Source: Tricholoma matsutake
Taxonomy: Eukaryota; Basidiomycota; Agaricomycetes; Agaricales; Tricholomataceae
Reading direction: 5' to 3'
Length of the DNA stretch: 64,000 bases
Assembly: GCA_026075535.2 (NCBI GenBank)
Contig: AP026540.1
Span: 3,472,001 to 3,536,000 of the forward strand
The notes beneath the pieces were generated by a model. The model saw only the letters and a list, made by a program, of their open reading frames with translations. It did no database searches and was not told the DNA's origin. Position numbers and translations under genes: made by a program. Positions 11,672 to 47,310 of this stretch are shown here, piece by piece (position 1 is the first letter of the stretch; every line of letters starts with the position of its first letter).

Positions 11672-12221
11672 TGATGCTCAACCTGTAAACTTAACCAAAA
11701 CACCCAACAAGTGTCTTAGGAGATATAACTTGAGTCAGAGGAAGGGTGCACTGAATATCACCACACTAAGCCAGGAGGTGTATATGAGGTGTGAAGATCT
11801 GTGAAGATGTTCGAAGTGCTATGAAGCACTACAAAGTGGTGTGAAGGAGTCTGGGGGGACACAAAGTGAGTTTGAGAGAGGTAGACAATGTGGACGATGT
11901 TGAAGGGTGATAGGATACAATAATGATGATGTGCAATAATGATGATAGATGATGTAGACAATGTGTGATAGCTTTGAGGAGCTAGTACGATGTTTGAAGA
12001 AGTTTGTGATGATTCGCAGAACTTAGCGCTAAGACAAAAAGCTGTGACCCAAAAGTAGAACCCTTGAATCAGATGATATACGAGAGGTGAAGACAATTTT
12101 TTTCTTGGAAAGGGTAGATAATACAAGGTTATATAAGTTTTGAAGAGATAGTACCAAAAAGGAAAAGTGACCATGAGGCCAACATGCAGTAATTTACACT
12201 CCCCCATATGTTCTGCATGGA

Positions 12222-12415
12222 CTACATGGAGTCACACAGACTATGCGGAGTCCATACTAGTCCACACAGACTATGCAGAGTCCATACTAGTCCACACGGA
12301 CTATGCAGAGTCCATACTAGTCCACACGGACTATGCAGAGTCCATACTAGTCCACACAGACTATGTGGAATCTGTGCTAGTCCATGCAGACTGTGCAGAA
12401 TCCATGCTATCAAGT
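12222..12415 (+). repeat. 30-bp tandem array in the left arm of TBE copy 2
   Basis: About six units of a 30-bp sequence built on CACACAGACTATGCAGAGTC + CATACTAGTC are arranged head to tail, the last more diverged (CATGCAGACTGTGCAGAATC). The unit is partly self-complementary. Related words (TCCATGCAGATCCATGTGG) fill the right arm at 19790-19940 without strict periodicity. The long ORFs here are shadows of the 30-bp period, which is a multiple of three. Confidence 0.9.
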
Positions 12416-12484
12416 TAACATCTTATGAGTTCCAAGCTTTTCAGACTGTATGAAAGTCATGAAGTGCCTACAAAATAAGATTGT

Positions 12485-12570
12485 GCAGAGCAAGGATTGA
12501 ACTTAAGACCTCAGGTTACCATCACATAACAAACAAGCATGCTCAGCCAGTTGAGCCACAGGAGAATTAT
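12485..12570 (-). promoter_or_regulatory. tRNA-like pol III module, left arm of TBE copy 2
   Basis: On the minus strand, box A TGGCTCAACTGG is at 12547-12558 and box B GTTCAATCC at 12494-12502. The longer gap between boxes would fit a tRNA with an extra arm or intron. It points outward, toward the element end at 12187. It is similar to the module at 43890-43975, and both differ in isotype from the right-arm modules. Confidence 0.55.
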
Positions 12571-12719
12571 TTGTTACTAATATAAAGTTTATTTATGACA
12601 CTCAAAACTCAAACTCAAACTCAATTACTTATTTAAACCCTCTCGAAGGAGGTGCATTGTTATATATTTAAAATCAAATAAATTTTATTAGCTAAAGAGG
12701 GTACTATAATTATATTAAA

Positions 12720-12850
12720 AACCCCTCGCATTCAGCGTGAGAGTCAAAAAAAACAAAAATCCCTCCCCACACAAAACATGGGGGAGGGGCAATGCAATAT
12801 TTACATAACACAACTAAACCCCTGTGTTGAATGCGAGGGGAGGGCAACAA
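12720..12850. repeat. Hairpin ladder of TBE copy 2
   Basis: Three short GC-rich inverted repeats follow one another in AT-rich linkers: CCCCTCGCATT...GTGAGAG, CCCTCCCCACAC...GGGGGAGGGG and CCCCTGTGTTGAATGCGAGGGG. The same arrangement with similar words is at 44050-44320 in the other TBE. No coding potential. The stems retain CpG although flanks are CpG-poor. Confidence 0.7.
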
Positions 12851-14273
12851 TTATAAATAAAAAACAAAATCCCCTCACCACCCCATGAGCAGTGGCTTGC
12901 AGCGGTGGGATGGGGCGCTCAGGTTGTCCTGGGTGGGTGGTGTGTCATCTGTCACTGTGGTTCCCGGTCGTTCTCCTTTTCATTGTGCCCATGCTATTGC
13001 ACCCCGTATTCACCCCATGAGTAGTTGCTCATGGTGGTAGTTGGGGGTGCTGCTGCTCCTTATCACCCTCGCCTCTCGCACCATCTCCACCCCATAAGCA
13101 GTTGCTTGCAGCAGTGGGAGGGGGTGCTGGTTGTCCTGGGTGTTGTTTCCTGGCCTCACCATCATCATCTATCCTTGTTGTTGTTGTCTGTCATGGTTGG
13201 CAGCTGTGCTTCACATTCTGGGGGTTCTGGTGCTGGTAGGTGGTGGTGGTGGTTGTTGTTGACTGCACACACTCACGATCCACCCTATGAGCAGGCTCGC
13301 AGGTGTGGGGTGGGTGTGTTGTCCATTTCAGGGGTCTCCTAGTTCAGAGGGGTCAGTGACATAGCATGTGAGGGAGGTAGGTGGGTGCTTACCAGGTGGA
13401 TATCCTGCTTTGCAGGTCTCCCAGTACCCCTCTGCCATCTCCTACCCCTGATTGAAAGCCTCACATCCTGTTTGGATGGGGAGGAGGGGTTGGCACAGGT
13501 GTTGTTGGGTCTGTGTTGTCTTGCATCAGTCCATCGTTACCAGTAGATTAGAACCTAGAGAACAAAAGAAACAAGTCAGTTAGTTTATAAAAACAAAAAG
13601 CAAATGAAAAAAAACTTATGTGGGCCCACATTCTGTCCAGTTGGCTCATTTGCAGGTTGTAGGTGGGTTGTCAGCATGATGTGGCTGGTGTACAAGGGGG
13701 TGGGGTGCTTACATGGTGTATCCATCCCCCTCATCCATCGTCGTTGTGCCCTGGCACTCTCTTTATGGGCCATTGTCAAGACTGATTTTCTCGACTGGAT
13801 TTCTGATCATTTTCCCTTCCTGGCTGCCTTGCATCACAGCCCACCTGCTATCAGTAGCACTGTCTAGAGTTGAAATTCTCTCATTTCCAATTCAAGGAAA
13901 TGGTTTCAGGATATTTGCCTCGGAGGCCATTTTCCAAATTATCACAGCCTCAGAAACTCCAATCGCCTCCAGACTTTAGTATATAAGCTAGCTACTTTTG
14001 TCTTGTATTAGCCAGTTTGTAAATTCAACCAAGTCACCCACCTAATTCCAACCCAATTATGCTCCAAATATTCTCTGAAGTTTATCTCGAACTTTAGCTC
14101 ATCCTCTCTGGGAATTCCCTGGACCTCTGATCTTCCTCTTTACCTTTGTCTTGAAATTAGGACACTTGACGAGGAGAAGGGCACAACTTCTTATAAGCTG
14201 AAGCCAAGTCCTTTCTGTCCCCACACTTGGTATGGCACTTCAAGTAAACCTTGCCCCGGAATCCTGTTGGGTT

Positions 14274-14712
14274 TATAAGGGCAACCTCAGCCTCTAGCAA
14301 AGGGAAATCTGAAGTTAAAATTATACTACATATTACAGGGATTGGGGGCGCACCTAGCAAAGGGAAATCTGAAGAGAAAACTCTAAGGATCCCTTTGCCA
14401 ATGCCCAGTATATGTGAAGACTGCAACAATCAAATAATAATCTAGAAATAGAAAAGGTGGAGATAGGCAGATCAAGGCCACCAAATGACATCATACCAAG
14501 GGGTAGATGTTGGAAGGGGTGCTCTGCCTCTAAATATAAAACTGTCAACATGCACAAATGTGATAGAAGAAAGGGAAATTAGTAATAAAATCTGGAAAAA
14601 TCATAGAAAATGAAGAATAGAAGGAAATGAAGTGAGGAAAAATATAGGACAAATGTAAAAAATAGAAGAAACATACAGGGCACCCCCCCGAGTCCCCCCT
14701 AGTTCCCTTACA
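14274..14712 (-). repeat. 3' LTR of chromovirus X (439 bp)
   Basis: Read on the minus strand it runs from TGTAAGGG to CCCTTATA. It contains two copies of AGCAAAGGGAAATC on the plus strand (near 14300 and 14360). The 61 bp from one to the next are absent from the partner LTR, so slippage or recombination between the direct repeats accounts for the length difference. GAAAACTCT at 14376-14384 is the segment matched by the primer-binding site. Confidence 0.93.
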
Positions 14713-14807
14713 CTACCCCCTCTCTAAGATGCATTGCCCTGATGCATTCAAAATCGCATATGACCAAAGTCAGTGACTTGAATGCGATGTGGTGCAGCAG
14801 TGTGCCA

Positions 14808-15677
14808 TCAGTGGAATTCCTTGACTAACTGAGAGGCATTCACATTGGACTCTTCGACCCATGAGTTCTCCTCATACCCATAACCCTTCCAATGCACCAA
14901 GTACTGGAGTTTCCCTCGACGCAACTGGCTGTCCAAGATTGACTCGACTTCAAACTGGGGTTCTCCCTCGATCACTGTAGGTGGTGGTGGTGGATGTGAA
15001 TGGCATCCCAGGAATGGATCTGGGGGAGCTGGAAGGAGTTTGATGACATGGAAGACTGGGTGGAGTCTGGACATGGAGGCTGGGAGACATAGACAATAGG
15101 CATGTGTTCCAACACACTTGACAATGGGGAAAGGTCCCAGGAAGTGATGAGCAAGTTTCTTGGACAGACACACAGTGGAGATGTCACTGGAGTCAAGATA
15201 AACTTGATCACCAACCTTGTACTGAGGGGTCAGAGAATGGCATTGGTTGTAAAAGCACGCCATGTCGTCCTTTGCCTTTGCCTCCTCCAAGCTATCCCGC
15301 ATGTGTTTTGTGAACTCATTCACTGTCTCAATGTGTGAGGGAGTTTGGCAAGGTTCAAATCCCATGCGTGGATGTTGTCCAGTGTCTAAGAGGAAAGGGG
15401 TCTGTTGAGTGGAAGCATGGACATGGTTGTTGTATCCAAACTTGGCCAAGGGGAGAAGATCATCCCAATTGTCCTGGTGCTCATTGACAAAGATGCAGAT
15501 GTACTGCTCCAGTTCCTGGTTGACTTGCTCAGTCTGGCCATCACTTTGTGGGTGATAGGTGGTCAAAACAAGGAGTTTAATCCCCAGAAGTTGGTACAGC
15601 TCACAAGTGAACTCTGCAATGAACTGAGGGCCATGGTCAGAGAGGAAGGCACCAGGAAGTCCATGTAATTTCCACAC
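14808..15677 (-). pseudogene. Integrase C-terminal half and chromodomain of X
   Basis: The frame begins WKLHGLPGAFLSDHGPQF, which holds the second catalytic Asp of the integrase core. QSDGQTEQVNQELEQYI follows, with the catalytic Glu. The C-terminal domain (YKVGDQVYLDSSDI) and a chromodomain (FEVESILDSQLRRGKLQYLV, HWKGYGYEENSWVEESNV) end the protein near 14808. The chromodomain would tether integration to modified chromatin. This segment has no stop, but the upstream part carries lesions. Confidence 0.85.
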
Positions 15678-15692
15678 ATGGTGGAGATAGAG

Positions 15693-16815
15693 TCAGGCAG
15701 CACCCAGAGTGCTGATAGTGGTGTGAGTGGGAATGAAGTGAGCGCATTTTCCCACTGAATCAACTGTGCACATCACCGCATCAAACCCATTCGACTCTGG
15801 CAACTCCACCACAAAGTTGACACTGACAACATCCCAATGACTCTCTGGAACAGGAAGAGGGTGTAGCTTGCCAATGGGTTTGCGATGAGGAATCTTGGTG
15901 CATAAGCAAAGGTCACAAGTATGACAATACTGACCAATGAGTCGTGACATTTGTGGCCACCAATAATTCTGTGAGGTGAGCTCCAAGGTCTTCCAGCATC
16001 CAGGATGACCAGCAATCTGTGAGTCATGGTGTTGGGATATGATGTGCTGGTGAAGGTCTGGGTCATTGGGGACATAGATGCAATCCCTGAAATACAACAA
16101 GTCCTCCTTTTCAGCCCACTCTGCCGCACGCAAGGAAAGGGTGGATCCCTTCCTCAGCTCTTTAACGGCTCGGGCAACAACATCCTCATATAAACTGCTA
16201 TGGTTTGCACAACAAATGTCACATAGGATGTCCCACTCCTTGCCCTGGGGTGCGATGCCTTCCAGTGCCTGAATGGTGAACAGGTCTGGCTGCAACAACA
16301 CAGTGTTTTGATTGTCATCGCTGCCATCCCCATGGTCTGCACATTGTGAGAGGGCATTGGTCTTCCCCATGCTGCGACCCAGACAGTGGTGCAAGGAGAA
16401 GTCGAATCTGGATAGATACAGGGACCAATGAGCTTGACAACAGTTCAATTTCTTGGCCATCATAAAGTACTTGAGATTCTTGTGATCCATCTGGAGACTG
16501 CTGAGACAATATGGCGCCCATCGCAAAGTCAGAACTGTTGGCTTCTACACAAAAGGGGCATGAATCATCAGCAAAGGTAAGAATGGGAGCAGAAGTGACC
16601 ATCTCCTTAAGCTTTTCAAATGCCTCCTGTTGTGCATTATCCCACCTCCATGCCTCCTTTCCGGTGAGGCATTGGGATATGTTTGATGTAGCACACACCT
16701 TGTGTGATAGATGAATCGCAGTGTAGAAGATCCGATCACCTTCCTCCACTTCCTCTGGCTCCTCCTCATCATCATCTGAGTCCGGCATCAGATCAGGAAC
16801 CCCTTCTAACTCCAC
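15693..16815 (-). pseudogene. RNase H remnant and integrase N-terminal part of X
   Basis: An acidic linker (DSDDDEEEPEEVEEGDRIFY) leads directly into WRWDNAQQEAFEKLKEMVTS, which normally follows RT, so the RT core is deleted. A second gap joins GAILSQQSPDG to DHKNLKYFMMAKKLN, removing the middle of RNase H and shifting frame. The integrase finger (HHDSQIAGHPGCWKT, then CHTCDLCL) is intact. The first catalytic residue of integrase reads VSVNFVVELP, Asn instead of the expected Asp (codon at 15816-15818). Confidence 0.85.
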
Positions 16816-16857
16816 TTTAGGTATAGGCAGGGGTCCAGCATGACACTTCTGAGTACA

Positions 16858-18098
16858 TCATATTGAGGCCCTTTGTCCATGACGTTCTTGTCTGGCTTCC
16901 ATGAAACAAGTGTGACAGTGGGATGGACACCGGCTCATTGTAACCTCCCCAGTACACCAGTTGACCTCTGGGTTATGGTCTCGAAGCCACACATAGCCCA
17001 AAATCACCTTCTGCTTTCCCAATTGAGTGACAGCAAAAAGGGCACACTCATTATGATCTTTGTAATGGAGGACCAGGTCTACAACCTCTCGAATGGCACC
17101 AGCTTCATTTGGGGACCCATCCACATTATAAACAGGTATTGGACATGAGTGTTCAGGAGCTATTGTTGTGCAAGATGGGCATCAATGAAGAGACCAGTTG
17201 CACCAGAGTCCAGGAGTGCAGAGACACTGAGTATCTGTCCAGTGTCAGTAGTCTGTAGTTCAATTGCTAGGTTCAAGGAATGTGTAGAGGGAGTGGATGC
17301 AACAATATATTTGTGTGGTAGTTTGCGCTCCCATGATTTAATTTTGGGGTGTGGAGCAGAGGGAGAGATGGGAAGAGCAGGTATGTCTTCAGCCAACTTC
17401 AAAGGGTCAGAGAGGGGAACAGTCATGGAAATAGATTCATTCTCTGGGGATTCAACTGACAAAACTTCAAAGTGGTTATGGACAGGCAGTGAGGGTGTAC
17501 AATCTTCTGACTTGATCTCCTCTGCACCCTGATCCTTCGCTTCCTTGACATCTACAAGTGCCAACAGGTCTTGGAGGAGTTCATCTTGCCCCTCAGGGTT
17601 GAGCATGCAGATATCCTGACAATGGGGACACACTCCAGCCCTGTGCTCAGTTTCTCCACATTGGTAGCAGGGATCCAACCTATGCGCACAGCTGTGGGCC
17701 ACATCAACATCCATTGGTACCGGGACATTGATGGCTGGTGTGGGAGTCTGATGGACAGGAATGGGGTTATGGCAGGGAAGGGTTTGATTGAAGGTGTAGG
17801 GCACATGAGTGGTAGTTGGAGCACAGAGTGCAGCATTAAACACCACATTCGTGAGTTGGTTCTCATCACAGAGTGAAGCAGCTTCATACCAAGCATAGAT
17901 ATCATCGTCTGCCGGGTGCCCTTCCAACATCTGTGCAATCTGGTCCTGAATTTCTTGATTGAGGCCCCATCTGAACTTCACCACCACTGGTAGCCCACTC
18001 CCATATCCTGCCATGTCCACCAAATCCTTAAACTCATCAATATAATTGTCCACAGATCGACATGCCTGATGGTAAGAGGATGACTCGAGCTGTGTCAC
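16858..18098 (-). pseudogene. gag C-terminus, zinc knuckle and protease of X
   Basis: The frame contains the gag helices (YIDEFKDLVDMAGYGSG), a zinc knuckle CYQCGETEHRAGVC and the retropepsin active site LLDSGATGLFIDAHLAQQ near 17160-17215. A frame change at about 17150 leads to the second protease block VILGYVWLRDHNPEVNW (about 16980). Protease type and order match element E at 35520-35800. Confidence 0.85.
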
Positions 18099-18211
18099 TG
18101 CTCAGTGGCGCTTGTTGAGGGGACAAAAGTGGTGTACAAACTCTGCCCGAAAGTCACCCCAAGTGGAGAAAGGTAGAGAATCAAGCTCTTTAGTTTGGCG
18201 CAGAATATGGT

Positions 18212-18679
18212 CTAGGCACATTCAGATTTAATGTATGTGAAGGCCCAATAAATTTTTGCACCCTCATTGACAAATTGATGCAACTGGAGACTGATGTACA
18301 ACTCACAGAAATTAAGGAATGCACCCCCCTGTGCACATGCACCATTAAATTTGGCGGGGGGAGACGGTTTGATCTGGGCACACTCCTTAGTGGGCACATT
18401 TGGCTGCACATCATTGTTGGGCTCACTTGGAGTCGCAACGGGGGGAATATTGGTCATAGAGTTAGTCTGGAGGGTCCTGATGAAGTTTTCAATTGTAGAT
18501 TTAAGTGAATCAATTTGTGTGCATATTCTGGTAACGTTGCTTTCAAGCACATCGAGGCGCTCTGATGTGTCCATCATCCATGTCGCTAGGGGGCACGTTT
18601 GGTGAAAATGGTGGTGCACTAAAGGCGGGACTGTTGGGAATGGTGTGTAGGGAGTCTGTGGAGCTTTGGGAAGTGTCAT
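18212..18679 (-). pseudogene. gag N-terminus of X
   Basis: It starts at a Met (18679) followed by a proline-rich stretch (PQTPYTPFPTVPPLVHHHF), a coiled coil (LDVLESNVTRICTQIDSLKS) and a region with IKPSPPAKFNGACAQGG typical of the start of capsid (KFDG). It breaks off near 18212 and the frame resumes at 18098. The lesions between these are indels plus a stop. Confidence 0.75.
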
Positions 18680-18734
18680 CCACTCTGTACCTGCCTATCT
18701 TGGGCAGCACATTCACGATTTTGGGCCTTAGGAG

Positions 18735-18743
18735 AGAGTTTTC
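18735..18743 (-). promoter_or_regulatory. Self-complementary primer-binding site of X
   Basis: Immediately inside the 5' LTR the minus strand reads GTC then GAAAACTCT. The LTR carries the complement, AGAGTTTTC, at minus-strand 18797-18789, about 30 nt after a TATATACTG-like box, where the transcript should start. This is the layout of Tf1-type self-priming. Here 9 nt match. Confidence 0.6.
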
Positions 18744-18746
18744 GAC

Positions 18747-19124
18747 TATAAGGGCAACCTCAGCCTCTAGCAAAGGGAAATCCAAAGAGAAAACTCTAAG
18801 GATCCCTTTGCCAATGCCCAGTATATGTGAAGACTGCAAAAATCAAATAATAATCTAAAAATAGAAAAGATGGAGATAGGCAGATCAAGGCTGCCAAATG
18901 ACATCATACCAAGGGGTAGATGTCAGAAGGGGTGCTCCACCTCTAAATATAAAACTGTCAACATGCACAAATGTGATAGAAAGGGAAATTAGTAATAAAA
19001 TCTGGAAAAATCATAGAAAATGAAGAATAGAAGGAAATGAAGTGAGGAAAAATATAGGACAAATGTAAAAAATAGAAGAAACATACAGGGCACCCCCCCC
19101 CAAGTCCCCCCTAGTCCCCTTACA
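18747..19124 (-). repeat. 5' LTR of chromovirus X (378 bp)
   Basis: Same ends as the partner at 14274-14712 but 61 bp shorter, lacking one of two AGCAAAGGGAAATC repeats. Transcription would run right to left. The plus-strand segment GAAAACTCT at 18789-18797 marks the presumed start of the transcript. Confidence 0.92.
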
Positions 19125-19613
19125 GGGTTCCCTTCCCTGCTTGATCCATCCTTATCAACTCCTACCATCCAGGTACGACCAGAAATCTGATGACTTCCTT
19201 CCTCCAGCTCAGAACTTAACAGCTATTGTCAGTGGTGGGTGTGCAGATGGGTGTGGCATGCTTGTTTCTGGGGTTTCATGCTGCTGCTAACAAAGAAAAC
19301 AAAGAAAACAAAGAAATTAGTTAAATTGAATATGAAAGAATGAAAGAAAAAACTTACTGCACATGGTGGCTCATTTGTGGCCATGGGTGGTGTTGCTGGC
19401 CCTGTGTTTGTCATTGTGGGAGTCTGTGATGATGGGGTGTTGGAGTGGGTTGGTGGGTGATGGAGTGGTGGTGGTAATAAGGGAGGGAGGGAGCTGCTGG
19501 CATCGATGGTGGTGGTGGTGAGTGATGAGCTGGCAACATCGATGATGCAGCTGTGTGCTTTGTCATACAAAGCCAAACAGCGGTATGTAGTTGCATTGAT
19601 AGCAACACCATAT

Positions 19614-19700
19614 CACTGGCTGCATAGTGTAATGGTAATATGTCCCTGTACTTTATTAGTTAATAATGAGGCTACAAGTTCAAATATCTTTCATGTCATT
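19614..19700 (+). promoter_or_regulatory. tRNA-like pol III module, right arm of TBE copy 2
   Basis: A tRNA-like start with TGCATAGTGTAATGG (19621-19635, box A-like) is followed by GTTCAAATA (19678-19686, box B). The box A type with TAATGG differs from the modules in the other arms, suggesting derivation from a different tRNA. It points to the element end at 19964. Confidence 0.5.
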
Positions 19701-20376
19701 ATTTTGCTAAGCCCAAATGGTCTGTTTGAATGCATGCAGACTGTCCTTGCTGGTCCAACCTGGTTGATCATGGATGCAGATGGTCAAAATCCATGGAATC
19801 TGAGTAAAATCCACAGAATCCATGTTAGTCTGCATGGATCCATGTGGACTGTCACACCCTGTTGCACAGCTAAAATGGTTCATTGCATGGATTGCAAATC
19901 TGTGCATAGTCCATGCAGATCCATGTGGATCCACACAGAATATATGGGGGAGTGTAAAGACCTCCCAACATGAGGCAGTAGAAAAGGTGTCCAAATCACA
20001 AAATAAATGAGAAATGATGTGAAAGAAAATGTGCAAAGTCATAATATCAAAGTCCTTTGTCCTGTTATTCCACTAAATCATGGATATGTCAAAAAACACC
20101 ACAATGCATCCTAAAATGCAAGCTGCCTTGTCTGCACATGTCCAGTGTGCTCAACATGTGTCATGTCAATGTGTAGGAGGTGTGCTGGGTGTGTCTGAAG
20201 GGTGGTGCAACTGGAGTACAGTGGCTGGAGGCATTCAAAGTGTTGCAAAGTGTTTTGAAGGCATTTCATGGGTTCTAAGATGTCTGTACATGTTTGCAGG
20301 GATATGTGGTGCCAATGGGGAGGTGTCAGATTATGTGGAAACCTTCCCAGAGCTTGAAGTGCAAGGTGGACTTATC

Positions 20377-29950: not shown

Positions 29951-29983
29951 AAAGGTGCGGAGGTTGGGCCAAACATATTCCCA

Positions 29984-32058: not shown

Positions 32059-32105
32059 CATCGGGAGCTGTAATTTACCCTCCCCCACCTATTCCAGTCA
32101 GAGTC

Positions 32106-32425: not shown

Positions 32426-32630
32426 CCCCCCCTTGATAAAGCAACTCTCAAAATCACTGAAATCACACCTTTAAACCAAGAAGAGTCCAGAATTTTTCCA
32501 CCGTTACACGAGGTAGTGCCTTGGTAAGAATGTTGGCAAGTTGGTCAGTGGTGGGGATATAGACAGGGGAAATGGTGCCAGCTTCAACTTCATCGCGTAG
32601 CCAGTAGTACTTGAGATCAAGGTGCTTCAT

Positions 32631-33712: not shown

Positions 33713-33714
33713 GA

Positions 33715-33725
33715 AGAACACAACT
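33715..33725 (+). promoter_or_regulatory. Self-complementary primer-binding site of chromovirus E
   Basis: AGAACACAACT begins two bases after the 5' LTR and is the exact 11-nt reverse complement of AGTTGTGTTCT in the LTR (33527-33537), placed where transcription should begin after TATATAAA. This reproduces the Tf1 arrangement, in which the first 11 nt of the mRNA fold back to prime reverse transcription. Confidence 0.8.
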
Positions 33726-34291
33726 TCCCATATCAGTGTGCCTTCTCTTACTTGCGCATACATCATTGTTTCACTGCACCACATCCGATTACTCACCCTT
33801 TCAGCATGAGCTGGAAGTACTTGTATATATGTAATCTACCTTTTCTTTCATAAGCCAACGCCAGGCCTCACCTTACATTGTGACTGCCAGTGATCGAGAG
33901 GCAGCACTCATCATTAGGACAGCTGCAACCAGACAACCAATCGGATCTGGTTTAGTTATGATTTACATTACTCTATTCGGACGACTACTTTAGTTACAAG
34001 CTGAATTCAGCAATATCTCTGAGATCAGGCACTGTTGGAAGGGTTATTGATCCAAAGTGTCAAAATAGGCGCCTGACGAACGACGAACAATTGACGAACC
34101 TCGATGAGCCTTATCACATGACACATAAACATTTGGCATTTGGAGAGGTCTCAAAGAAAAAATTTTGAATTTGTCGAAGAAGTGATTCATCACAGATTCT
34201 ACAATTATGTCTGAACCTTCAACTTCTAATCCCGGTCCTAATCCTGTTCCCATACCAAATTGATGCGCTCACAGCACAAATGTCGTAATTA

Positions 34292-35275: not shown

Positions 35276-35836
35276 AAGGTTTCCCCATTGGTGACCCAGA
35301 ATCGTTACAATGTATTAGTATCCGAGGAAACCCAGAGTAAATCAGAAAAGGAAATCGAGGAGGAGTACAACTGTTATGAATCACATGACCAAGAAAATTG
35401 CCGAGCACTATTTCCAAAAACCCCTAAATTCTTTATTTGCTCTGTGCGAATAGAACCAGAAATCACCTTGACTGTGGGATTGAAGACAGTGGACACGCAT
35501 GCAGCTATTGATGTGGAAGTGTTGCTTGATAGTGGTGCTACAGGATTATTTATTGATCAATCCTTAATTACCAGAAATGGTATTAACACACGCAAGCTGG
35601 CACAACCTATAATGGTGTACAATATTGATGGAACAGTCAATCATGGAGGAACTATCAAGGAGGAGGTGACTATGGTACTAAAGTATCAGGAGCATCAGGG
35701 AGCGAGCCATATTTGAAGTGTGCAATCTTGGGAAAACCAATCTAATAATAGGATGTCCATGGTTATGGAAGCATAATCCCGAAATTGATTGGAAAACTGG
35801 GAAAGTACAAATGACTCGTTGTCCTAAGGAATGTAA
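35276..35836 (+). pseudogene. Protease of chromovirus E
   Basis: The frame contains VLLDSGATGLFIDQSLITRN near 35518-35578, the retropepsin catalytic Asp, and after a frameshift near 35705 the block LIIGCPWLWKHNPEIDW (about 35742-35795). Closely similar to the protease of X (LLDSGATGLFIDAHLAQQ), so E and X belong to one clade. Confidence 0.85.
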
Positions 35837-37572: not shown

Positions 37573-37581
37573 TGTTCAGAA

Positions 37582-39095
37582 ATGGACGATGAAGTAGTGG
37601 AAGCCGTGAAAGCTCTGAAGGGAGAGAAGAAAGGTAATATCAAAGGAGATGAATGGGCTGAGGAACAAGGGTTGGTGTTGTTTCGAGGAAAAGTGTATGT
37701 ACTGAAGGATCAGGATTTGCAAAGGGAGATCGTCCAGTTACATCACAATACACTGATTGCCGAACACCCAGGAAGATGGAAGACGTTGGAATTAGTAATG
37801 AGAAATTATTGGTGGCCCAGAATTTTGAAGTATGTGTTGGGGTATGTGGATGGATGTGATACATGCATGAGGGGAAGAAATTTCCAGAGAAACCTGCAGG
37901 AAAATTAATGCCAAAGCCTATACCTAAAGCGCTGTGGCGAGATATATCTGTGGATTTTATTACCAGATTACCCGAGGCTCAAGGGTACGATGCAATATTC
38001 ATAGTATGCGACCGCTTTACAAAGGAGGTCCATATTATTCCTACTACTACAGAAACCTCATCATTGGGCTTGGCGCGCCTCTATCTAAATCAGGTATGGT
38101 GGTTACATGGGTTACCTGATACCATTATCTCTGATCGTGGACCACAATTTGCTTCCGTGTTTATGTGAGAACTAAACAACATATTGGGAATTCAAACTAA
38201 ATTATCTATGGCATATCACCCACAGACTGATGGGCAGACAGAGAGAATGAATCAGGAGTTGGAGCAGTACCTACATATGTTTGTCAACTACCAACAAACC
38301 GACTGGCCCGAATGGTTGGCAATTGCCAAATTTTCCCACAATAACAAATTCCATTTGGCTACTCATATGTCACCCTTTTTCATGAATTATGGATATCATC
38401 CTTGCATGGGAGTAGAACCCAGAAGGGAAGTCAAAGTACAGTTGGTAGAAGATTTTGTATCTAAGATGCAAAAGGTACAAGAGGAAGCAGAGGCGGCATT
38501 GAAGAAAGCACGTGATGACATGATGCGACACGTGGATCGTACTCAAGCACGCACTCCAGAGTACAAAGTTGGTGACTTGGTATGGCTAAGTACCAAGGAC
38601 CTGAATATTCCATGACCTTCAAGGAAACTTATGGAGAAACAAGTTGGCCCATATGCGATCTCTAAAGTGATCTCACCTAATGCAGTAGTGCTAAAATTAC
38701 CCCAATCATTCAAGATTGATCCCAAGATTAATGTATCCCGCCTACGCCCTTACCGCCTGCCCACTATTCCTGGCCAACAAACTACTCCACAACCTCCGAT
38801 AATAGTAGAAGGTGCTCCAGAATACATAGTTGAAGAAATTCTAGACTCATGTCTTCGATGGAACAAATTGGAGTTCTTAATAAAGTGGAAAAACTATACC
38901 GATGAAAATAATTCGTGGGAAACCAAAGAGAATTGTAAGCGAGCACGTAACGCAATCGCCCAATTCTTTAAATGTAATCCGAATGCTCCACATTGCATTG
39001 CAAGAATGGTGTATGAGGGGATGAAATTCCGGCCTTATCAAAATTTCACAGAGGGGACAAACGTAATATCTTCTTGCCTGGAAGTTGAGGCATAA
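37582..39095 (+). pseudogene. Integrase and chromodomain of chromovirus E
   Basis: H2C2 finger: HHNTLIAEHPGRWKTLELVM and GYVDGCDTCMRGR (to about 37885), with a frameshift near 37880. Core: DISVDFITRLPEAQGYDAIF, TIISDRGPQFASVF, then TGA 38166-38168, then DGQTERMNQELEQYLHMFVN, so the catalytic Asp, Asp and Glu are all kept. C-terminal: YKVGDLVWLSTKDLNIP, TGA 38613-38615, and a chromodomain (EYIVEEILDSCLRWNKLEFL, IKWKNYTDENNSWETKEN). A stretch to 39095 follows the chromodomain. Confidence 0.9.
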
Positions 39096-39106
39096 AAGGG
39101 GGGTAA

Positions 39107-39508
39107 TGTTAGGAAACCACCCCATTACCTAATAAAATTTCATTTTTATTTTATTATGTCGAATTACGCTACATGATGCCAAATTACGCTACACTTTGAT
39201 AGCATGAGAATTTTATTTCGCACACATCAAAATGTATGCGCATGTACGAGTGCATCAGTAACAACAATGTACAATATGTGTAACATAGTATATAAACCCT
39301 AAATATATGCCTAGGGGACCCCAGTTGTGTTCTCTTAGGTATTCCACCTACACTTTTGGTGTGAAAGGCCTTTGTCAACAAACTTACCTATTAATAACCC
39401 CTCGCATCAAAACCATCAATTTCCCCATCACGAGCGCGGATCCCGCCCCCTTCTTGTAGAGAGAACCCGCACGGTCTTAGCTAGCAGATAGTGGGTGTTG
39501 CCCTAACA
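39107..39508 (+). repeat. 3' LTR of chromovirus E
   Basis: 402 bp, the same length as the 5' LTR, preceded by AAAAGGGGGGTAA. It keeps CpG at several places where the 5' LTR has TpG or CpA (for example ATGTCGAATTACGC), and the reverse at others (AGCATG against AGCGTG). Both LTRs have therefore lost CpG independently. Confidence 0.94.
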
Positions 39509-42500
39509 ATGAGTAATGTGGATGCCAAGTAGGAATTGAGTAGGACCAAGATCATGAAGTTTGAAATGGGATTTGAGATCTTCAACTACCTTGTCAATGG
39601 CAGAAGTAGAAGTCCCAGCAAGAGTAATGTCATTGATAAAGATTGGAACAATTACCCTGACTTCACCTCATGTGTAAATATAAACAGCACGGTCCACTTC
39701 ACAGCATGTAAATCCCATAGCTGTCAATACCTCATGGAGGCGAGCATTCCAGTTGCGAGCAGACTGTTTCAACCCATAGAGAGGTTTATGCAGCAGACAA
39801 ACTGTGTTTGGGTTACCTTGATGGAAACCCTCAGGTTGGCACATGTAGATGACTTCCTCAAGTTCTTTCCCAAGTAAGAAAGCATGGGAGATGTCAAGAG
39901 AGCAAAGGTGGAGGTCTTTCCTTGCAGCCAATGCAAGAATTAGCCAAAGTGAAGCAGGATGATAAACTGGGGAGAACGTAGTGTCTTCTGCATATTCAAA
40001 ACCAGGGTGTTGGGTGAAACCCTTAGCCACAACCCAACCTTTGTAATGCTCAATGGAGCCATCAGCATTATGCTTGAGGTTAAAAACCCATTTGCATCCA
40101 ACTACCTTTGCACCAGGAGGTAACTCTACATAATCCCAAGTCCCGTTCTCAAAATGATTGTTCATCTCTGCATTTGCTGCCTCCTGCCATTTTCGTGCAT
40201 CTGAGCACTTCATAGCCTCCTTGAATGACTGTGGGTCCACATAACGAGTAGATAATGCAAGATCAATACTAGAATCTGAACCATCACCAACAACTGGACC
40301 AGACTCATCATCAGATGAAGGTTGATCGAATTGTGGAGCTGGGATTGGAGCAAGGGGCTCATTCCAAGCCCGTGGTGGCAATCCAGCATTCTTGTGTGGA
40401 TTAGCAGCTCGACGCTCTAAAAGTGGAGGAAGTGATGGAGGAGGAGATGAAATTGGGGTCTGAGGTGGAGATACAGCAGGTGTCTGAGTAGGAGGAGTGG
40501 GAGTGTGAGGGGTAGTATTAGCAGGAGGAGAAGAAGCAGGAGGAGTAGGAGCATGAGCAGGAGATTGAGATGGAACAGGATCATCATCAAGATCAGTTAC
40601 ACCAGAAGGAAGAATTGCCTGTACAGGTTCAGGATCAATGTCACTAAGATCAGGAACCGTCAAAGGTGTAAGATACTCGGACATGATGAGAGGGGAAGAG
40701 GGATCAACAGGTGGCTTGTTCCAAGTGTGTTTGAGACCAGGAAAATAGTGCTCATCAAATTCAGCGCGTTCACAGATCACAGTATGCTTGGTCACAGGAT
40801 TGTAGAATTTCCAGGCTTTGTAACCCTCAGGGTAGCCAATGAAAACACACTTCTCCATGTGAGAGCCAATCCCAGTACGCTTATCCTTCTGGATGTGAAC
40901 ATATGCAGCACAACCCCAAACTCGGAGATTTGAGACATCTGGTTTACGCTTATGCCAGAGTTCAAAGGGGGTTTTCTCCGAGAGAGAATGAGTGGAACAC
41001 TTGTTCTGGACTGTGATGTATGCATTGACAGCCTCACCCAAGAAAGAAGGAGGTAAACCAGCTTCATAAAGCATGGCAGTAGCATGTTCCTCAATACTGC
41101 AGTTTGCTCGTTCAGCAATGCCATTTTGTTGAGGTCGATTGCAAACAGTATGCAAACGTTCAATCCCACACTGATCTGTGAATGCAAGGAATTCATTAGA
41201 CATGTACTCGCCTCCCTTGTCATCAATCATAGCCTTGATTTTGCAATTCCAGTGATTCTCAGCTTTCGCTTTGAATAACTTGAATGCATTAAATGCCTGA
41301 TCTTTGGTATGAAGGAAGTATTTGGAGCGGAAACGAGTATTGTCATCAATGAAAGTGATCCAGAAATGATACGCAGAGTGAGTACGTGTTTTGAAGGGAC
41401 CATGCAAATTGGAGTGGATGAGATCAAGGGGATTGGCAGCACGACTAGAGGAAGTGGGGAATGGATGTGCATTCATCTTGCCAGCTAAACAAGGTTCGCA
41501 TATAGGGTCTGGTTTGGCATGCATATTAATATGCATACCAGTCACCAGCTCATCCTTCACAATCTTATTGACAACATCGTAGCCATGATGAGCAAAACGA
41601 CAATGCCAGAGATTGCGGTCTGCAGGAAGAGTGGATATGGAGCGGTGAGCATGCTTGGTGAACACCTCAGTAGTCCCAGCAAGAAATGCAGAATTGTTCT
41701 CATCAATGGGAGCCATGAAAAGGCATTCACCATCAAGTAAGAATATCATCGCAAGTTCATTGGCAGAGATATAAATGTCAATACCACGTTGACGGGGTAA
41801 ATACAAGACTGAGAGGAGATTGTTCTGGAGATCGGGGACATGCAAAACACGAGTAAACTTGACAGCCCTCAATTCTTTTCCTGCAATAATCGGTTTAAAC
41901 ACCACACTTCCTACACCTTCAGAATAGACAATAGTATTGTCCACAAGACGAATTGGGACACGAAAAGGGGTATAATCGCGAAGCCAGTTGCGATGAGGCG
42001 TCATATGAGACATGGCGCCTGTGTCTGCATTCCAAAGGTAAGTTGTGGTTGAAGTAGGAGTGGGTTGAGAGGAACAATAACTTGCATTCCCAGCAAACTC
42101 AGCGACTGAAATGGCAGTAGCAACAGCTGCACTTTCAGGAGAGGAAGGTGATGTGGAGGATGTGGTTGTAGAGGTGTTAGCAATGTGAGACCACTTGGGT
42201 TTATGTGCCTCCATCTTTGCAGCAAGGAGTTTCCTGCACTGAGGTAGGGTATGACCTTTAAATCCACAAAAGTCGCAGAGTAAACCGATAACTGAAGAGG
42301 TGGCTAGAGCAGCACCGGATGTGGAGTCACTGGAGAACCCAGAACGACGTTCATGGTTTAATTGCTCATTCCTGAATGCTTCATGAATAGTAGAGTGATC
42401 AAGATTGTCGATGAGCATGAGGGAAGAGACGAATGAGGAATATTCATTGGGAAGGGCACAGATGAGAGCCATGGAGTGAAGTTCATTGTCAAGGTCATCG

Positions 42501-42952
42501 AGGGTGAAGCCAGAGGGATGGAGATCCTTGATAGCATGGACCTTCTCAGAAACACGAGCTATGAGACCTTCCAGACCCTCACTCTCTTGTTTCCTAACAG
42601 AGAATAAGTCATCATAGGTATTGAAGCACGTACCAGGCTTCTTTGATTGATTCCCTCTCTCCAACAGCTCCCACATCTTCTTTGGATCGTCAAAAACCCC
42701 ACCCAGGTGATGCTTCTGGTCATCCTCAATATGCAAATAAATGTCCCCAGCCCCCTTATCCACTAGTTGAAACCACAAACAACGTGCCTCTGCATCCCCA
42801 GGGCTAGGCTCCTGTATATCACCAGTCACAACCCTCCACCACCCCTGTTTACGTCCCCAGGCAGCCATCTGATCTTTCCAGGAGGCATAATTACGATTGT
42901 TGAGCTTTGGGAAATTAGGTGATGAGTTAGACATGTTTGCGGAACGATGCAC
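39509..42952 (-). pseudogene. Copia D polyprotein: gag, protease, integrase, RT (main part)
   Basis: An open frame of 1094 codons from Met at 42952. In order: gag (FPKLNNRNYASWKDQMAAWG), zinc knuckle CDFCGFKGHTLPQC, protease LWNADTGAMSHMTPH, integrase finger (NLWHCRFAHHGYDVV, PICEPCLAGKM), integrase core with LDLIHSNLHGPFKTRTHSAY, a proline-rich linker and RT (GAKVVGCKWVFNLKHNADGS). The first integrase Asp reads Asn (codon 41408-41410). A TGA (39668-39670) interrupts RT. The catalytic box reads FINDIT with Asn (39632-39634). All three fit CpG deamination. Otherwise unusually intact. Confidence 0.92.
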
Positions 42953-43417
42953 TGAGAAGCGAGCGTGGGCGCGATTGGGGTAAGCGTAGGCGCGTTCAAG
43001 GGAAGGGAAGGTGCCGAATCTGCCTGTTGAATCCGTTCGACGATAGCGTTTAAATTGGGTGTGCGCGAGACGATTTGAGCAAAGGGTGTAATTTGAGCAT
43101 TTGGTGTTTCAGATTCATGATGAGCGCTGAGTGGGAACCGTGGGCGCGTTCAACTATCGGTGTTAACTGGAGGTGGGGGGTATGTCCCCAAGTGTCCTAG
43201 AAAAAGGACTAAGCGATCCGACCAGTGGGCGACGAGGAACGTCGAATTTGGTGGGAAAAGTCTGATAACTCCAACAAGGGCTTGTTGACCAACAACCAAG
43301 GCACACAGAATGGAAATTGTAGGTGCTGGGGGGTTATTGAGGTCAGGGAATTCACTGAGAGTGGTTTCAGAGTGATTGGAGTTGATTTGAAGTCGCTAGG
43401 GCACAGGGCCCATAACC

Positions 43418-43737
43418 TGCTAAAGTCTGAGGTTGCCTTTAGTGCAGTTTAACCTAGCAACTGTGAAGGGAGACTCAGATAGACTGAACAGCTGGAATCC
43501 AGAGTGAGCAACTCGTTATTATATGAGACAATAAGGAGTACAGTACCTGGAGTCCAGAGTGAGCAACTGAAGAGTGCAAAACTCCAGACTCTGCAGTCTA
43601 CATACTGTGAAACAAACAGTGATAAACACAAGGTGGAAACTACTCTAAGTGCCCATGAGTGTAACTACAAGTGATAGGACATGGAATAGAAGTAGGATAG
43701 AAGTAAAATAGAGAGATGGTGAATCATACATTTAACA
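43418..43737 (-). repeat. 5' LTR of Copia D
   Basis: 320 bp with one visible difference from the partner LTR. On the minus strand it is followed by GGTTATGGGCCC, the probable primer-binding region; I could not assign the primer tRNA. Confidence 0.93.
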
Positions 43738-43889
43738 GAGTCCAGTTATTCCAATTGGAGTCCAGTTATTCCAGTTATTCCAACCAGATTCTGGTTACTC
43801 CAGATGCTCAACTTAGAGTATATACCCTAATGGATAGTCAAATTTCAAGTCTTAAGTTGTCAAAGTGCCTACAAAATATATTTGTGCAG

Positions 43890-43975
43890 AGTAAGGATTG
43901 AACTCAAGACATCATGATTAGAGTGATCACATGACAAAGCAAACATGTGTGCTTAACCAGTTGAGCCACAGGATA
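43890..43975 (-). promoter_or_regulatory. tRNA-like pol III module, left arm of TBE copy 1
   Basis: On the minus strand, box A TGGCTCAACTGG is at 43958-43969 and box B GTTCAATCC at 43895-43903. It is very similar to the module at 12485-12570 and also points outward, toward the left end at 32068. The Copia insertion now separates it from that end. Confidence 0.55.
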
Positions 43976-44049
43976 ATTATTAGATAGTAATATAATGTTT
44001 ATTCATGACACTCTAATTTTTTTCGAAGTAGTTAAGATCAAATTTTTTT

Positions 44050-44320
44050 AATTAACCACATCCCTCACATTGAATGCGAGGGAGTGGGGATGATTGTGAT
44101 TATATACATAAACAAAAAATCCTCCCTCTCACAAGATGCGAGAGGGAGTTTTATTTATATACATAAAAAGCTAACCCCTTGTGCCGAACGCAAGGGGGGA
44201 GGTAAAAACATGAAGAAAAAAATCCCTCCCCCATGCAAAACAGGGGAGGGGCACAATACTAATAAATAATTAAAAGTACAAAAAAAATCCCTCCCCACAC
44301 AAAGTGTGGGGGAGGGGGAG
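44050..44320. repeat. Hairpin ladder of TBE copy 1
   Basis: Five short GC-rich inverted repeats stand in AT-rich linkers of about 40 bp: CCCTCACATTGAATGCGAGGG, CCTCTCACAAGATGCGAGAGG, CCCCTTGTGCCGAACGCAAGG, CCCTCCCCC...GGGGAGGG and CCCTCCCCACAC...GTGGGGGAGGG. The linkers share TATATACATAAACAAAAAAT words. The order and words parallel 12720-12850. Confidence 0.75.
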
Positions 44321-44349
44321 GGGATGTGACCCCACTGTTGTCTGTCCTT

Positions 44350-44665
44350 CCACCCATGATCCACCCCACGAGCAGTTGCTTGTGAGGCTGGGGGTGGGTG
44401 GTGCATTGTTGTCTCCTATCCCTGCACCTGGGTGTCGTTCCACCCATGTTCCACCCCACGAGCAGTTGCTCATGAGGCTGGGGGTGGGTGTCTTGTTGTC
44501 GTTGTTGTTCCACCTGCAATCCACCCCATGAGCAGTTGCTCGTGAGGCTGGGGGCGGGTGGTGTGTCATTGTTGTCTCCTGTCCCTGTGCCTGGGCATCA
44601 TTCCACCCACGATCCCCCCCATGAGCAGTTGCTTGTGAGGCTGGGGGTGGGTGGCTTGTTGTCAT
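44350..44665 (+). repeat. Four imperfect tandem copies around the palindrome GAGCAGTTGCTC
   Basis: Each unit has CCACCC(A/C)(C/T)GATCCACCCCA, CGAGCAGTTGCTCGTGAGGC and TGGGGGTGGGTGG. Unit spacing is about 80-110 bp. The palindromic core could form a stem. Related cores occur at 12885-13110 and in the hAT interior near 3360 and 3820. Proline-rich frames on the minus strand here are shadows. Confidence 0.8.
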
Positions 44666-44899
44666 TTGTCGCTGTCATCCCCTGTTTGGATTTCTGTTTT
44701 TTTCTTTTTTTTTGGGGGGGGGGGGGGGTTTGGGCGCATCAGTGCAACATGGCACAAGTACAGAGGTGGGTGGGTGCTTACTAGGCAGGTACCCCCCTTC
44801 TGGGGTCCTGGCATCCCTCTGCACCCTCCTAGCCCATGTCGACAGCCTCACATCCCATTTGAATGGGGAGGAGGGGATCGGGTGGGTGTGGGTGTGGGT

Positions 44900-45385
44900 T
44901 GCATGTTTTTCATCGTGGCAGGTCATCCCCAGTAGTATACAACCTAAAAAGCAATGAATTACAATTAGTTGATTGATAAAAAGAAAAAGGAAAAAGAAAA
45001 AAACTTATCTATGGCCCAAATGACATTGCCATCATTTGGGCCCGCATTCCATCCAGTCGGCTCGCATTTTTCATTGTGGCAGGTCATCCCCAGTAGTATA
45101 CAGCCTAAAAAGCAATAAATTACAATTAGTTGATTGATAAAAACAAAAAGAAAAAAGAAAACAACTTATCTATGGCCCAAACAATGTTGCTGTCGTTTGG
45201 GCCTGCATTCCATCCAGTCGGCTCGCATTTTTTGTCGTGGCAGGTCATCCCCAGTAGTATACAACCTAAAAAGCAATAAATTACAATTAGTTGATTGATA
45301 AAAACAAAAAGAAAAAAGAAAAAAAACTTATCTATGGCCCAAATGACATTGCCGTTGTTTGGGCCTGCATTCCATCCAGTCAGCT
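44900..45385 (+). repeat. 161-bp tandem repeat, three copies
   Basis: TGGCAGGTCATCCCCAGTAG recurs at 44916, 45077 and 45238, a strict 161-bp period. Each unit contains an A-rich stretch and CTTATCTATGGCCCAAA followed by GTTTGGGCC(C/T)GCATTCC, the latter two capable of pairing. Single similar units occur near 13540-13660 in TBE copy 2. Confidence 0.9.
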
Positions 45386-45520
45386 CATTTGAAGATGGTG
45401 GTGATGGTGGGAGTGGGTGTGGGAGTGCTGGTGGTGGGTGCACATGCAGTGGTAGTGGTAGAGTGGAGAGGAGGAGGCAGCATTGATGATGGTGTGGTAG
45501 TTGTGAGCTGGCAGTCACAT

Positions 45521-46880
45521 TGATGATGCTCAACCCGGAAACCCAAACAAAACCCACAAAAAGGCTTCAGATGGTATAACACGAGTCAGAGGAAGGATGC
45601 GAGGCCCTCTAGATGTCACCTGTCAGATTGACCATCAAATAGCCATAAAAGGACTGCTTGTCAAAGCAGTTTGAAGCTAAAAGAATGTGTTTCGAGGACT
45701 TGCAATGATTTTCGAGACGTTGTGATGATTCTTGAGATGTCGCAATGATTTTCGAGATGTTGCGATGTTTTTTGAAGAAGTTTCGAGGAATTTTGAGTGC
45801 TCAAATATGTTCAGATGCAAGATCGGGGGACTAGACAAGTAGTAGAAGCAAAGCAAAGGTGAATTGAAGGAATCGAGAGCAAGAATAGCATAATGCGAGG
45901 AATTTCGAGGAGTTTCGAGGAAAGTTAGCATAAAACACCAAACTTCGGACTGAATAAGACTAAACCGAACTCTCAAATCACTGTGATCTGGGAGGAAGAC
46001 GATGACTTTCTTGTTTTTCTTTGTATCTAGTACATCTTTTTATATAAAATAAAGAAAGTACCTAAAAAAGGCTAGAGAACATGAGGAAAACATGTGGAAA
46101 ACTCGAGGCAAAAGACAATATAAGTATGTCAGAACAATAAAGCAAGCCTAGAAGGGGTGAATATAACACATGATGAAGAAATAATAAGAAAGAATAGCTA
46201 AAACTGGACTGTCCTTGTTATAAATTGAATAAAAGATCGGAAACTGCTTCAAGTGGATTGTATGCGTGCACATGTGGTCAAAATGTGTTTGATATACTCG
46301 ATATAGTGTCCCATGTGTCCAGCATGCATCTGAAGATTGTTTGAACAGGAAATACTGTGTCCAATGATGTTTTTTTGAGGTTCAATGTTTTTCGAAGATT
46401 TTCGAAGATTCTTCGGACTTCGTTCATGGCCCGATATCAGTCCAATATTGTTCGACAATGGTAGGGGATACGTCTGGCATGTGTGCGATGATTATTTGGA
46501 TAGCGATATAGCATCCGATGTCAATTTTTGATGTTCGATGATTTTCGAAGTCAGTCGAGGAATATTGGACTTGCTTGAAGGCCAATATCGCTGCAATATT
46601 GCTCGAAACTGGTTTGGAACTCGTCAACAATGTTCCTAGTGTATATCCTGAGCTGTCCAAAGGTCGGGGGAATTGTATTATGGCAGCCGAAGGCATACAA
46701 AGAATTTCGAGGTGTTGCAAAGAGTTTCAAAGTGTTGCAAAGAATTTTGAAGCATTCTTGTGACTTTGTAGAGGTTTGTAGAGGTTTGTAGAGCTTTGGA
46801 GAGGTCTGTAGAACTTTATAGAGCTTTGACAACAATCGTAGATGTGCTTTCCAAGCTTGAACAATGAGGTGGACCTATCA
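45521..46880 (+). repeat. Repeat family R, copy R2
   Basis: TGATGATGCTCAACCCGG at the left end and GGTGGACCTATCA at the right, 1,360 bp, the reverse orientation of R1. It lies within TBE copy 1. TBE copy 2 shows the unoccupied site (GGCAACATCGATGATGCAGC), so R2 inserted at a GATGATG site. No coding frame is supported. Confidence 0.75.
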
Positions 46881-46995
46881 ATGTGTCACGTGTCATGCAT
46901 GTATGTGTACTTATTATTTATTCCGTTAATTGGCTGCGGTTAACTACGCACCTTGGTTTGGTCATAAAGGTATTAAATGTATATAGAGGAATGAT

Positions 46996-47066
46996 TGCCT
47001 GGTAGCTCAGTGGTTAAGCACGCTGTGATATGCAGACCCAAGGTTGAGGGTTCAATTCTTGTTGTA
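46996..47066 (+). promoter_or_regulatory. tRNA-like pol III module, right arm of TBE copy 1
   Basis: Box A TAGCTCAGTGG at 47003-47013 and box B GTTCAATTC at 47050-47058, almost the same as 41-115. The module points right, to the element end at 47301. It is preceded by GGTATTAAATGTATATAGAGG, matching the start of the window. Confidence 0.55.
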
Positions 47067-47310
47067 TGTCAAACTTTTATTTGGGGCACGTGCATTCCGG
47101 TTATTCCAGTTATTCTGGTTATGATGAGTCCAGTCAGATTCCGGGGATTCCAGGTGTAAATTGGATCCTTATTCCGACTGGAATTGTGCTGCATAGGGAA
47201 AACTACATACAAAAAAAATTCCACTGGATTCCAGAAATTCCAGAAATTCCAGCTGGACAAACTGGAATCCAACCAGAATAGGTTGGGGAGTGTAAAGTAC
47301 TCATCGGGAG

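Follow-up and report, generated by a model that had tools for sequence, protein, structure and literature searches.

Repeated elements of Tricholoma matsutake with terminal inverted repeats and outward-facing pol III-like units in both arms

The genome of Tricholoma matsutake contains a group of repeated elements that end in terminal inverted repeats (TIRs), lie between 8-bp target-site duplications and carry, inside each end, an outward-facing unit with the box A, box B and T run of an RNA polymerase III (pol III) gene. We describe the group through two members, element 1 and element 2, in a 64,000-nucleotide stretch of contig 3 (3472001-3536000), hereafter the window; positions are those of the window unless a contig or locus is named, L-numbers denote loci fetched from the genome, and C1-C8 are contigs 1-8. 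Read from the sequence, the elements have TIRs, an 8-bp duplication, a history of single insertion, a body lacking long frames and outward units with the geometry of a terminator. With moderate confidence, we take them to be non-autonomous cut-and-paste DNA transposons with paired outward pol III units, moved by a transposase acting in trans, the units serving a role at the DNA level. The pol III activity of the units and its use are what we infer from these features.

Boundaries of the elements and their relatives in the genome

The two elements, their termini and flanking duplications, and one end of a further copy are located as follows.

12187-19964, plus strand: element 1 (subfamily B), with nested insertions inside; native sequence 12187-13778 and 19222-19964, ~2.33 kb
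32068-47302, plus strand: element 2 (subfamily A), with nested insertions inside; native sequence 32068-32104, 43738-45520 and 46884-47302, ~2.24 kb
12179-12186, unstranded: target-site duplication CCAACATG left of element 1 (direct repeat and empty sites)
19965-19972, unstranded: target-site duplication CCAACATG right of element 1 (direct repeat)
32060-32067, unstranded: target-site duplication ATCGGGAG left of element 2 (direct repeat and empty sites)
47303-47310, unstranded: target-site duplication ATCGGGAG right of element 2 (direct repeat)
12187-12204, plus strand: left TIR of element 1, CAGTAATTTACACTCCCC
19947-19964, minus strand: right TIR of element 1, GAGGTCTTTACACTCCCC
32068-32085, plus strand: left TIR of element 2, CTGTAATTTACCCTCCCC
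47285-47302, minus strand: right TIR of element 2, GAGTACTTTACACTCCCC
12205-12420, plus strand: left sub-terminal arm of element 1, with TCC-N-GGA-type words
1-386, plus strand: right end of another A-type copy, with box A at 48-59, box B at 96-105, TTTT at 122-125 and the terminus at 386

Both target duplications are perfect over 8 bp. A preliminary description of the window had placed inverted termini with direct duplications just outside them at both elements, and a partial end at 1-386; the coordinates, the right end at 386 included, were confirmed with minor corrections. Element 2 starts at 32068, as proposed, but ends at 47302 and is thus one base longer than the proposed limit of 47301, and of the 8-9 bp suggested for the duplications only 8 bp stand, the ninth base being the last C of element 2 itself. 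The native parts were defined by alignment to intact relatives, and these 2.2-2.3 kb contain no long reading frames.

That each element behaved as one insertion, as had been proposed, was examined by rejoining its flanks with a single copy of the duplication and searching the genome with the result. All 40 scored matches to the rejoined flanks of element 2 (of 495 candidates) cross the junction and are empty sites; for element 1 the same holds for 38 of 40 scored matches (of 412 candidates), the other two being the window's own flanks. Since empty sites span the junctions, the two arms cannot be taken to have inserted separately. Nor do they fail to occur together, the other outcome that had been named as fatal to a single unit: a left arm accompanies 14 of the 20 A-type right ends sampled, and in 12 of the 14 the duplication agrees at 7-8 of 8 bases. 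Inverted terminal repeats with a duplication of fixed length around one insertion are the features of a class II TIR transposon.

Ends near CWGTAATTTACMCTCCCC / GAGKWCTTTACACTCCCC are common to the subfamilies. A left-end 16-mer (up to one mismatch) has 1,650 matches genome-wide (803+847) vs 29 (16+13) for its reversed control, and a right-end 18-mer (up to two mismatches) has 2,552 (1279+1273) vs 14 (9+5). Among 30 exact left ends, at least four subfamilies, A-D, could be separated by sub-terminal sequence. Subfamily A was sampled by following 20 stretches inward from strong A-type right ends, drawn from 40 scored matches. A left end was found in 14, giving element lengths of 1,713-2,286 bp, and the duplication matches at 8/8 bases in nine of these copies, 7/8 in three, and 5/8 and 2/8 in the remaining two; an intact copy in L048 (6358-8623 of that locus) has CATGCATT on both sides, an 8/8 duplication. 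Of 11 stretches of types B, C and D that were traced inward, four have a paired right end, each with a 7/8 duplication, at lengths of 2,244 bp (B), 1,554 bp (C, its diverged right end found by eye), and 1,760 and 1,939 bp (D). The intact copies read thus span 1.55-2.29 kb, without long reading frames.

The TIRs are imperfect and ~18-28 bp long. Right ends read GAGGTC in B, C and D (AAGGTC in one B copy) and GAGTAC in A. Within one subfamily the next ~10 bases of the left and right ends are alike and the sub-terminal sequences similar, as expected if one transposase reads both ends. The arms had also been described as rich in self-similar, self-complementary words. This proved correct for TCC-N3-6-GGA-type words, which number 2-7 per 182 bp vs 0.4-0.5 in shuffles (16 arms tested), but not for near-palindromes in general, which beyond these words did not exceed shuffles.

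Some ends lie in more complex arrangements. In L047 (contig 3, 3465950-3472450), the 6.5 kb directly upstream of the window, four element-end-like sites occur in both orientations, a fifth pattern match looking like chance; the locus is a knot of nested copies that includes the end at 1-386. Two exact A-type right ends on contig 2 (1328860-1329463) face each other with their termini 0.6 kb apart, a module in each, and are perhaps two adjacent copies. A locus on contig 3 (10967740-10970361) has two A-type right ends separated by 2.6 kb, their interiors toward each other, and is possibly an element with two right arms.

Pol III-like units in the arms

The units of the two elements read outward, on the minus strand at the left and on the plus strand at the right.

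12547-12558, minus strand: box A TGGCTCAACTGG of the left pol III-like unit of element 1
12472-12503, minus strand: downstream part of that unit, with box B at 12494-12503 and TTTT at 12472-12475
19625-19635, plus strand: box A TAGTGTAATGG of the right pol III-like unit of element 1
19677-19705, plus strand: remainder of that unit, with box B at 19677-19686 and TTTT at 19702-19705
43957-43968, minus strand: box A of the left pol III-like unit of element 2
43873-43904, minus strand: downstream part of that unit, with box B at 43895-43904 and TTTT at 43873-43876
47003-47014, plus strand: box A TAGCTCAGTGGT of the right pol III-like unit of element 2
47049-47078, plus strand: remainder of that unit, with box B at 47049-47058 and TTTT at 47075-47078

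A strict scan (box A with up to one mismatch, box B with up to two, 30-75 nt between them) gave outward pairs in 27 of 65 arms and inward pairs in 3 of 65, vs 38 in 1,300 shuffles, many of the arms being related copies. The scan misses most left units of the A and B types, whose box B is AGTTCAATCC and whose boxes are more widely spaced (63 nt in L019). When arms were read individually, the unit was present in both arms of all four subfamilies. The outward box A/box B pair that had been proposed just inside each end was thus borne out by the scan and by arm reading. Across ten measured arms, the distance from the terminus is 237-372 bp for the start of box A and 154-285 bp for the end of the T run; the left arm of L002 was not measurable.

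Ten of 11 representative arms have a run of at least four T that starts 15-18 nt downstream of box B, whereas shuffles gave a mean of 1.39 and a maximum of 5 in 2,000 trials, the count being made in a window of 14-22 nt after box B. In the tRNA genes of T. matsutake, a T run lies 12-22 nt after box B in 27 of the 28 distinct genes fetched, and the units show this tRNA-gene-like spacing of box A, box B and terminator. The complete unit, with box A, box B and TTTT, was recovered in 19 of 20 sampled A right arms. On C1-C3, 37 of 90 listed exact A-right box A words lie within 600 bp of an exact A right end (100 such ends listed), where 0.23 would be expected by chance; 36 of these 37 face outward, at 277-332 bp. 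Genome-wide, the A-right box A word (up to two mismatches) has 571 matches and its control none.

When compared with T. matsutake tRNA genes, mostly variants of tRNA-Ile, 8 of 10 units scored above at least 299 of 300 shuffles, the A-right unit being closest to tRNA-Ile(TAT) (score 34, shuffles averaging 12). As the presence of boxes was the basis for choosing the units, this similarity is partly built in. Left and right modules are related to each other in A and in the D copy L027 (0 of 1,000 shuffles reach the score) and weakly so in B (40 of 1,000) and C (51 of 1,000). According to the alignment, the spacer between box A and box B varies in length and sequence across subfamilies.

Mobility, role of the units and rival explanations

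tRNA genes act as barriers to silencing. In the model we favour, a transposase encoded elsewhere, most likely of hAT or Zisupton/Dileera type, would bind the ends and the sub-terminal words and move the element by cut and paste. The units would attract TFIIIC/TFIIIB and pol III, giving rise to short RNAs that terminate early. Their main use would lie at the DNA level, in keeping both ends nucleosome-free and shielded from silencing, and perhaps in helping the two ends to meet. We prefer a DNA-level over an RNA role, given that any transcript would be short, would stop well before the terminus and would not fold like a tRNA; since the tRNA structure of the units is lost, tRNA function is not expected. 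A stronger proposal, that this is a new design of DNA transposon in which selection maintains a full outward pol III unit at either end and the assembly of TFIIIC/pol III opens the ends, blocks silencing and pairs the ends, is one that we advance only tentatively.

Several observations weigh against this model. No transposase tied to the ends was found in the frames inside 30 left ends or in partial lists of gene positions, and the superfamily and the cut-and-paste mode therefore have to be read from the TIRs and the duplication alone. Six of the 20 A stretches have no recognised left end within ~2.4 kb, and 7 of the 11 B, C and D stretches have no paired right end within ~4 kb. One C-type left arm and one A right arm lack TTTT, the D copy L037 seems to be without a right unit, and the left box A of the B copy L002 is not intact. 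The D-left and D-right units do not exceed shuffles in their similarity to tRNA genes (28 and 20 of 300 reach them). ARAGORN with default settings found no tRNA in the window or in 16 element sequences, relaxed settings giving noise, and the Rfam tRNA model had no match to the units (E up to 5, 5, 10, 10 and 1). An intact tRNA within the units, unrecognised by either, was rejected; the units retain promoter and terminator but have lost the tRNA fold, a pattern also reported for the Helenus elements (PMC10886601). In a comparison of 15 A copies, box A and box B did not clearly exceed the remainder of the element in conservation, the fraction of windows as low being 4% for the right box A, 26% for the right box B, 28% for the left box A and 19% for the left box B. 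This counts against recent selection, of which copies drifting after insertion would show little. Similar units across subfamilies may also reflect descent without function.

To look for a transposase, we took the 107 frames inside the 30 left ends that reach 85 aa and are not of low complexity, and scanned 99 of them with Pfam, ten being rescanned singly. The scan returned RVT_1, DUF6570, a weak HTH_Tnp_Tc5 (0.0015) and Phage_P2_GpE, in one member each, and no convincing transposase. We also compared listed KDZ, hAT and MULE matches (101, 93 and 40, on C1-C8) with partial lists of left ends (C1-C8) and right ends (C1-C3), the random means being approximate. Pairs closer than 12 kb numbered 3 for left and 6 for right ends for hAT (1.8 and 2.3 at random), 3 and 1 for KDZ (2.0 and 2.8), and none for MULE (0.8 and 1.1), so that none of these gene positions showed a convincing association with the listed ends. 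Two KDZ matches seemed to lie inside an element. By its coordinates the match on C7 falls outside, past a complete copy of 1.9 kb, and the match on C1 is 7.5 kb away from a left end leading into an ordinary A copy (L013). Separately, a remnant of a hAT dimerisation domain with one internal stop lies on the minus strand at 53096-53284 of the window, and no TIR was recognised around it by eye.

The preliminary description had proposed a non-autonomous DNA transposon with a duplication fitting hAT, MULE or KDZ. A single TIR unit stands, and two superfamilies agree with its 8-bp duplication. A non-autonomous hAT family is one possible identification, which we would not press. The ends, CWGTAA/GAGKWC, do not match the known hAT terminal consensus. 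The genome holds at least 151 hAT-domain matches, and hAT matches lie near listed A right ends more often than at random, but the excess is small, of mixed orientation (three of the six inside) and slight at left ends. The elements share with hAT transposons, whose duplications usually measure 8 bp (PMC12730594), this duplication length together with sub-terminal repeats. An origin as a Zisupton- or Dileera-type (KDZ) family is equally tentative. The duplication and TIRs of our elements suit it, as 8-bp duplications have been reported for Zisupton and one Dileera family (PMC12730594), and KDZ genes are abundant in T. matsutake (165 matches from 150 scored of 831 candidates), but they show no positional association with the listed ends. 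Kyakuja, the third KDZ lineage considered, is reported to have 7-bp duplications, CA..TG termini and no TIRs (PMC12730594), and is disfavoured by the 8-bp duplications and TIRs observed here.

Concerning the units, a serious rival to a functional role is that they are passengers: a tRNA fragment caught in an ancestral terminal repeat, duplicated into both arms and inherited by all subfamilies without function. We judge this conceivable to the same tentative degree as the design under selection. Such a history agrees with the absence of recognisable tRNA folds, with boxes that do not clearly stand out in conservation within subfamily A, and with the kinship of left and right modules, clear in A and L027 and faint in B and C. 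It accounts less readily for box A, box B and the TTTT position being retained in both arms of diverged subfamilies (10 of 11) when the spacer separating the boxes is constant in neither length nor sequence. The preliminary description had further suggested a paired-SINE mobile unit, that is, two short interspersed nuclear elements (SINEs) inserted tail-out that became the ends of a composite element. Outward tRNA-like heads at both ends are what such an origin would leave, but nearly every module examined is followed by TTTT well before the terminus, 15-18 nt downstream of box B, which would leave the arm untranscribed; transcripts would stop at least 150 bp before the element end, and the arms are therefore not a pair of SINEs. 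Empty sites that record a single insertion, ends that are TIRs with 8-bp duplications, and the lack, by eye, of an A-rich tail or a second duplication pair in the arms read also speak against it, and we consider this origin very improbable.

Surrounding repeats and comparison with known systems

The interiors of both elements had been taken to be non-coding, which is wrong for most of their length: the bulk consists of nested long terminal repeat (LTR) retrotransposons with coding frames (Copia- and Gypsy-type Pfam domains), and only the native sequence lacks long frames. The insertions, and the retrotransposon that hosts element 2, are listed below.

13779-19221, unstranded: nested insertion in element 1, 5.4 kb, with Gypsy-type integrase, RNase H and chromodomain frames
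32105-43737, unstranded: nested Copia-type LTR element in element 2, 11.6 kb, LTRs identical at 320/321 positions
33311-39508: Gypsy-type LTR element inside the Copia-type element
45521-46883, unstranded: inserted repeat in element 2, 1.4 kb, type unknown, with relatives at 5559-6829 and 58574-59588
26730-48288, unstranded: LTR retrotransposon hosting element 2, LTRs 26730-27288 and 47730-48288, 93.4% identical

In element 1, LTR sequence at 13774-14229 and 19149-19221, resembling 26730-27288, is split by a Gypsy-type chromodomain element with LTRs at ~14273-14712 and 18767-19124. The Copia-type element is flanked by a 5-bp duplication, GAGTC, judged by eye. Repeated GAGCAGTTGCTC-type hairpin words occur in the interiors at 12872-13142 and 44336-44670 and are matched in left-end loci of several subfamilies. 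Elsewhere in the window, 61727-62114 forms a long inverted structure, probably a palindromic repeat, to which plant-miRNA Rfam models match below their gathering scores (best 60.7 bits), and 62403-62689 is a direct tandem repeat with a ~93-bp period and 94-95% identity.

A separate LTR element resembling a terminal-repeat retrotransposon in miniature (TRIM) was observed in L080 (contig 1, 7782400-7783500) and in L081-L085. Its ~225-bp repeats, TGTTGGATTATATAATC...TCTGTTTAACA, each hold an intact tRNA-Ile(TAT) gene; in L080 two of them lie ~70 bp apart with an AGAAC duplication, by eye. It looks like a Helenus in Tricholoma. In T. bakamatsutake, 275 of 277 tRNA-Ile genes are reported to have the TAT anticodon (PMC10627285), an excess that this TRIM-like element probably explains. 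We had considered whether those genes were units of the transposons described here, and dropped the idea, as intact T. matsutake tRNA-Ile(TAT) genes lie in the separate element. A 'Small RNA' repeat class of 2,342 copies is given in the matsutake paper (PMC10211490); that it corresponds to the present transposon family is only a guess.

tRNA-derived SINEs have one head and no TIR and are copied by the machinery of long interspersed nuclear elements. The matsutake elements share their box A/box B tRNA-like region, but not the single pol III head or the absence of TIRs, and their predicted transcripts would not run to the 3' end. In yeast, tRNA-gene and TFIIIC barrier or clustering elements would share the mode of action proposed here; they are host loci, whereas the matsutake units lie in transposon ends. 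Miniature inverted-repeat transposable element (MITE)-like, non-autonomous hAT or Zisupton elements lack coding capacity, have TIRs and reach high copy numbers, and we know of none with a pol III unit inside both ends. The matsutake elements resemble them in all three respects and in their 8-bp duplications (PMC12730594). Dada DNA transposons, which are also connected with tRNA genes, insert into multicopy RNA genes (PMC3706591, PMC8869645). In the matsutake elements, by contrast, the tRNA-like units lie inside the transposon, and the two targets in the window are other repeats.

In searches of open-access PMC, none of the papers listed has a title or abstract opening that reports pol III units at both ends of a TIR transposon, and a non-autonomous DNA transposon equipped with a pair of such units appears to be new to that literature. 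If the model holds, it could explain part of the unclassified repeats in a commercially important 161-Mb mushroom genome and provide a natural test of tRNA-type insulators spread in a transposon-rich genome. It could also caution against annotating units of this kind as SINEs or tRNA pseudogenes. The stronger proposal, of a design under selection, would add many hundreds to thousands of TFIIIC-type sites to the genome.

The nearest precedent is Helenus/TRIMp3, short non-autonomous elements, also present in some Agaricomycetes, with a terminal tRNA-derived pol III promoter, in which promoter motifs are conserved and predicted folds do not support tRNA function (Kojima 2024, PMC10886601). The matsutake elements are likewise short and non-autonomous, with a tRNA-derived promoter in their terminal parts and without its fold. 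Helenus, however, is an LTR retrotransposon with direct LTRs, a primer-binding site, a polypurine tract and, in fungi, 5-bp duplications (PMC10886601). The matsutake elements depart from this plan: their ends are inverted rather than direct repeats, their duplications measure 8 bp, and their two units point away from each other. Under the stronger proposal they would be the DNA-transposon counterpart of TRIMp3. SINEs and some LTR-type TRIMs are already known to carry pol III promoters (PMC10886601). Pol III units at both ends of a cut-and-paste element, if our reading is right, would show that such promoters help mobile DNA irrespective of its copying mechanism, and would allow their role to be tested where mobility does not pass through RNA.

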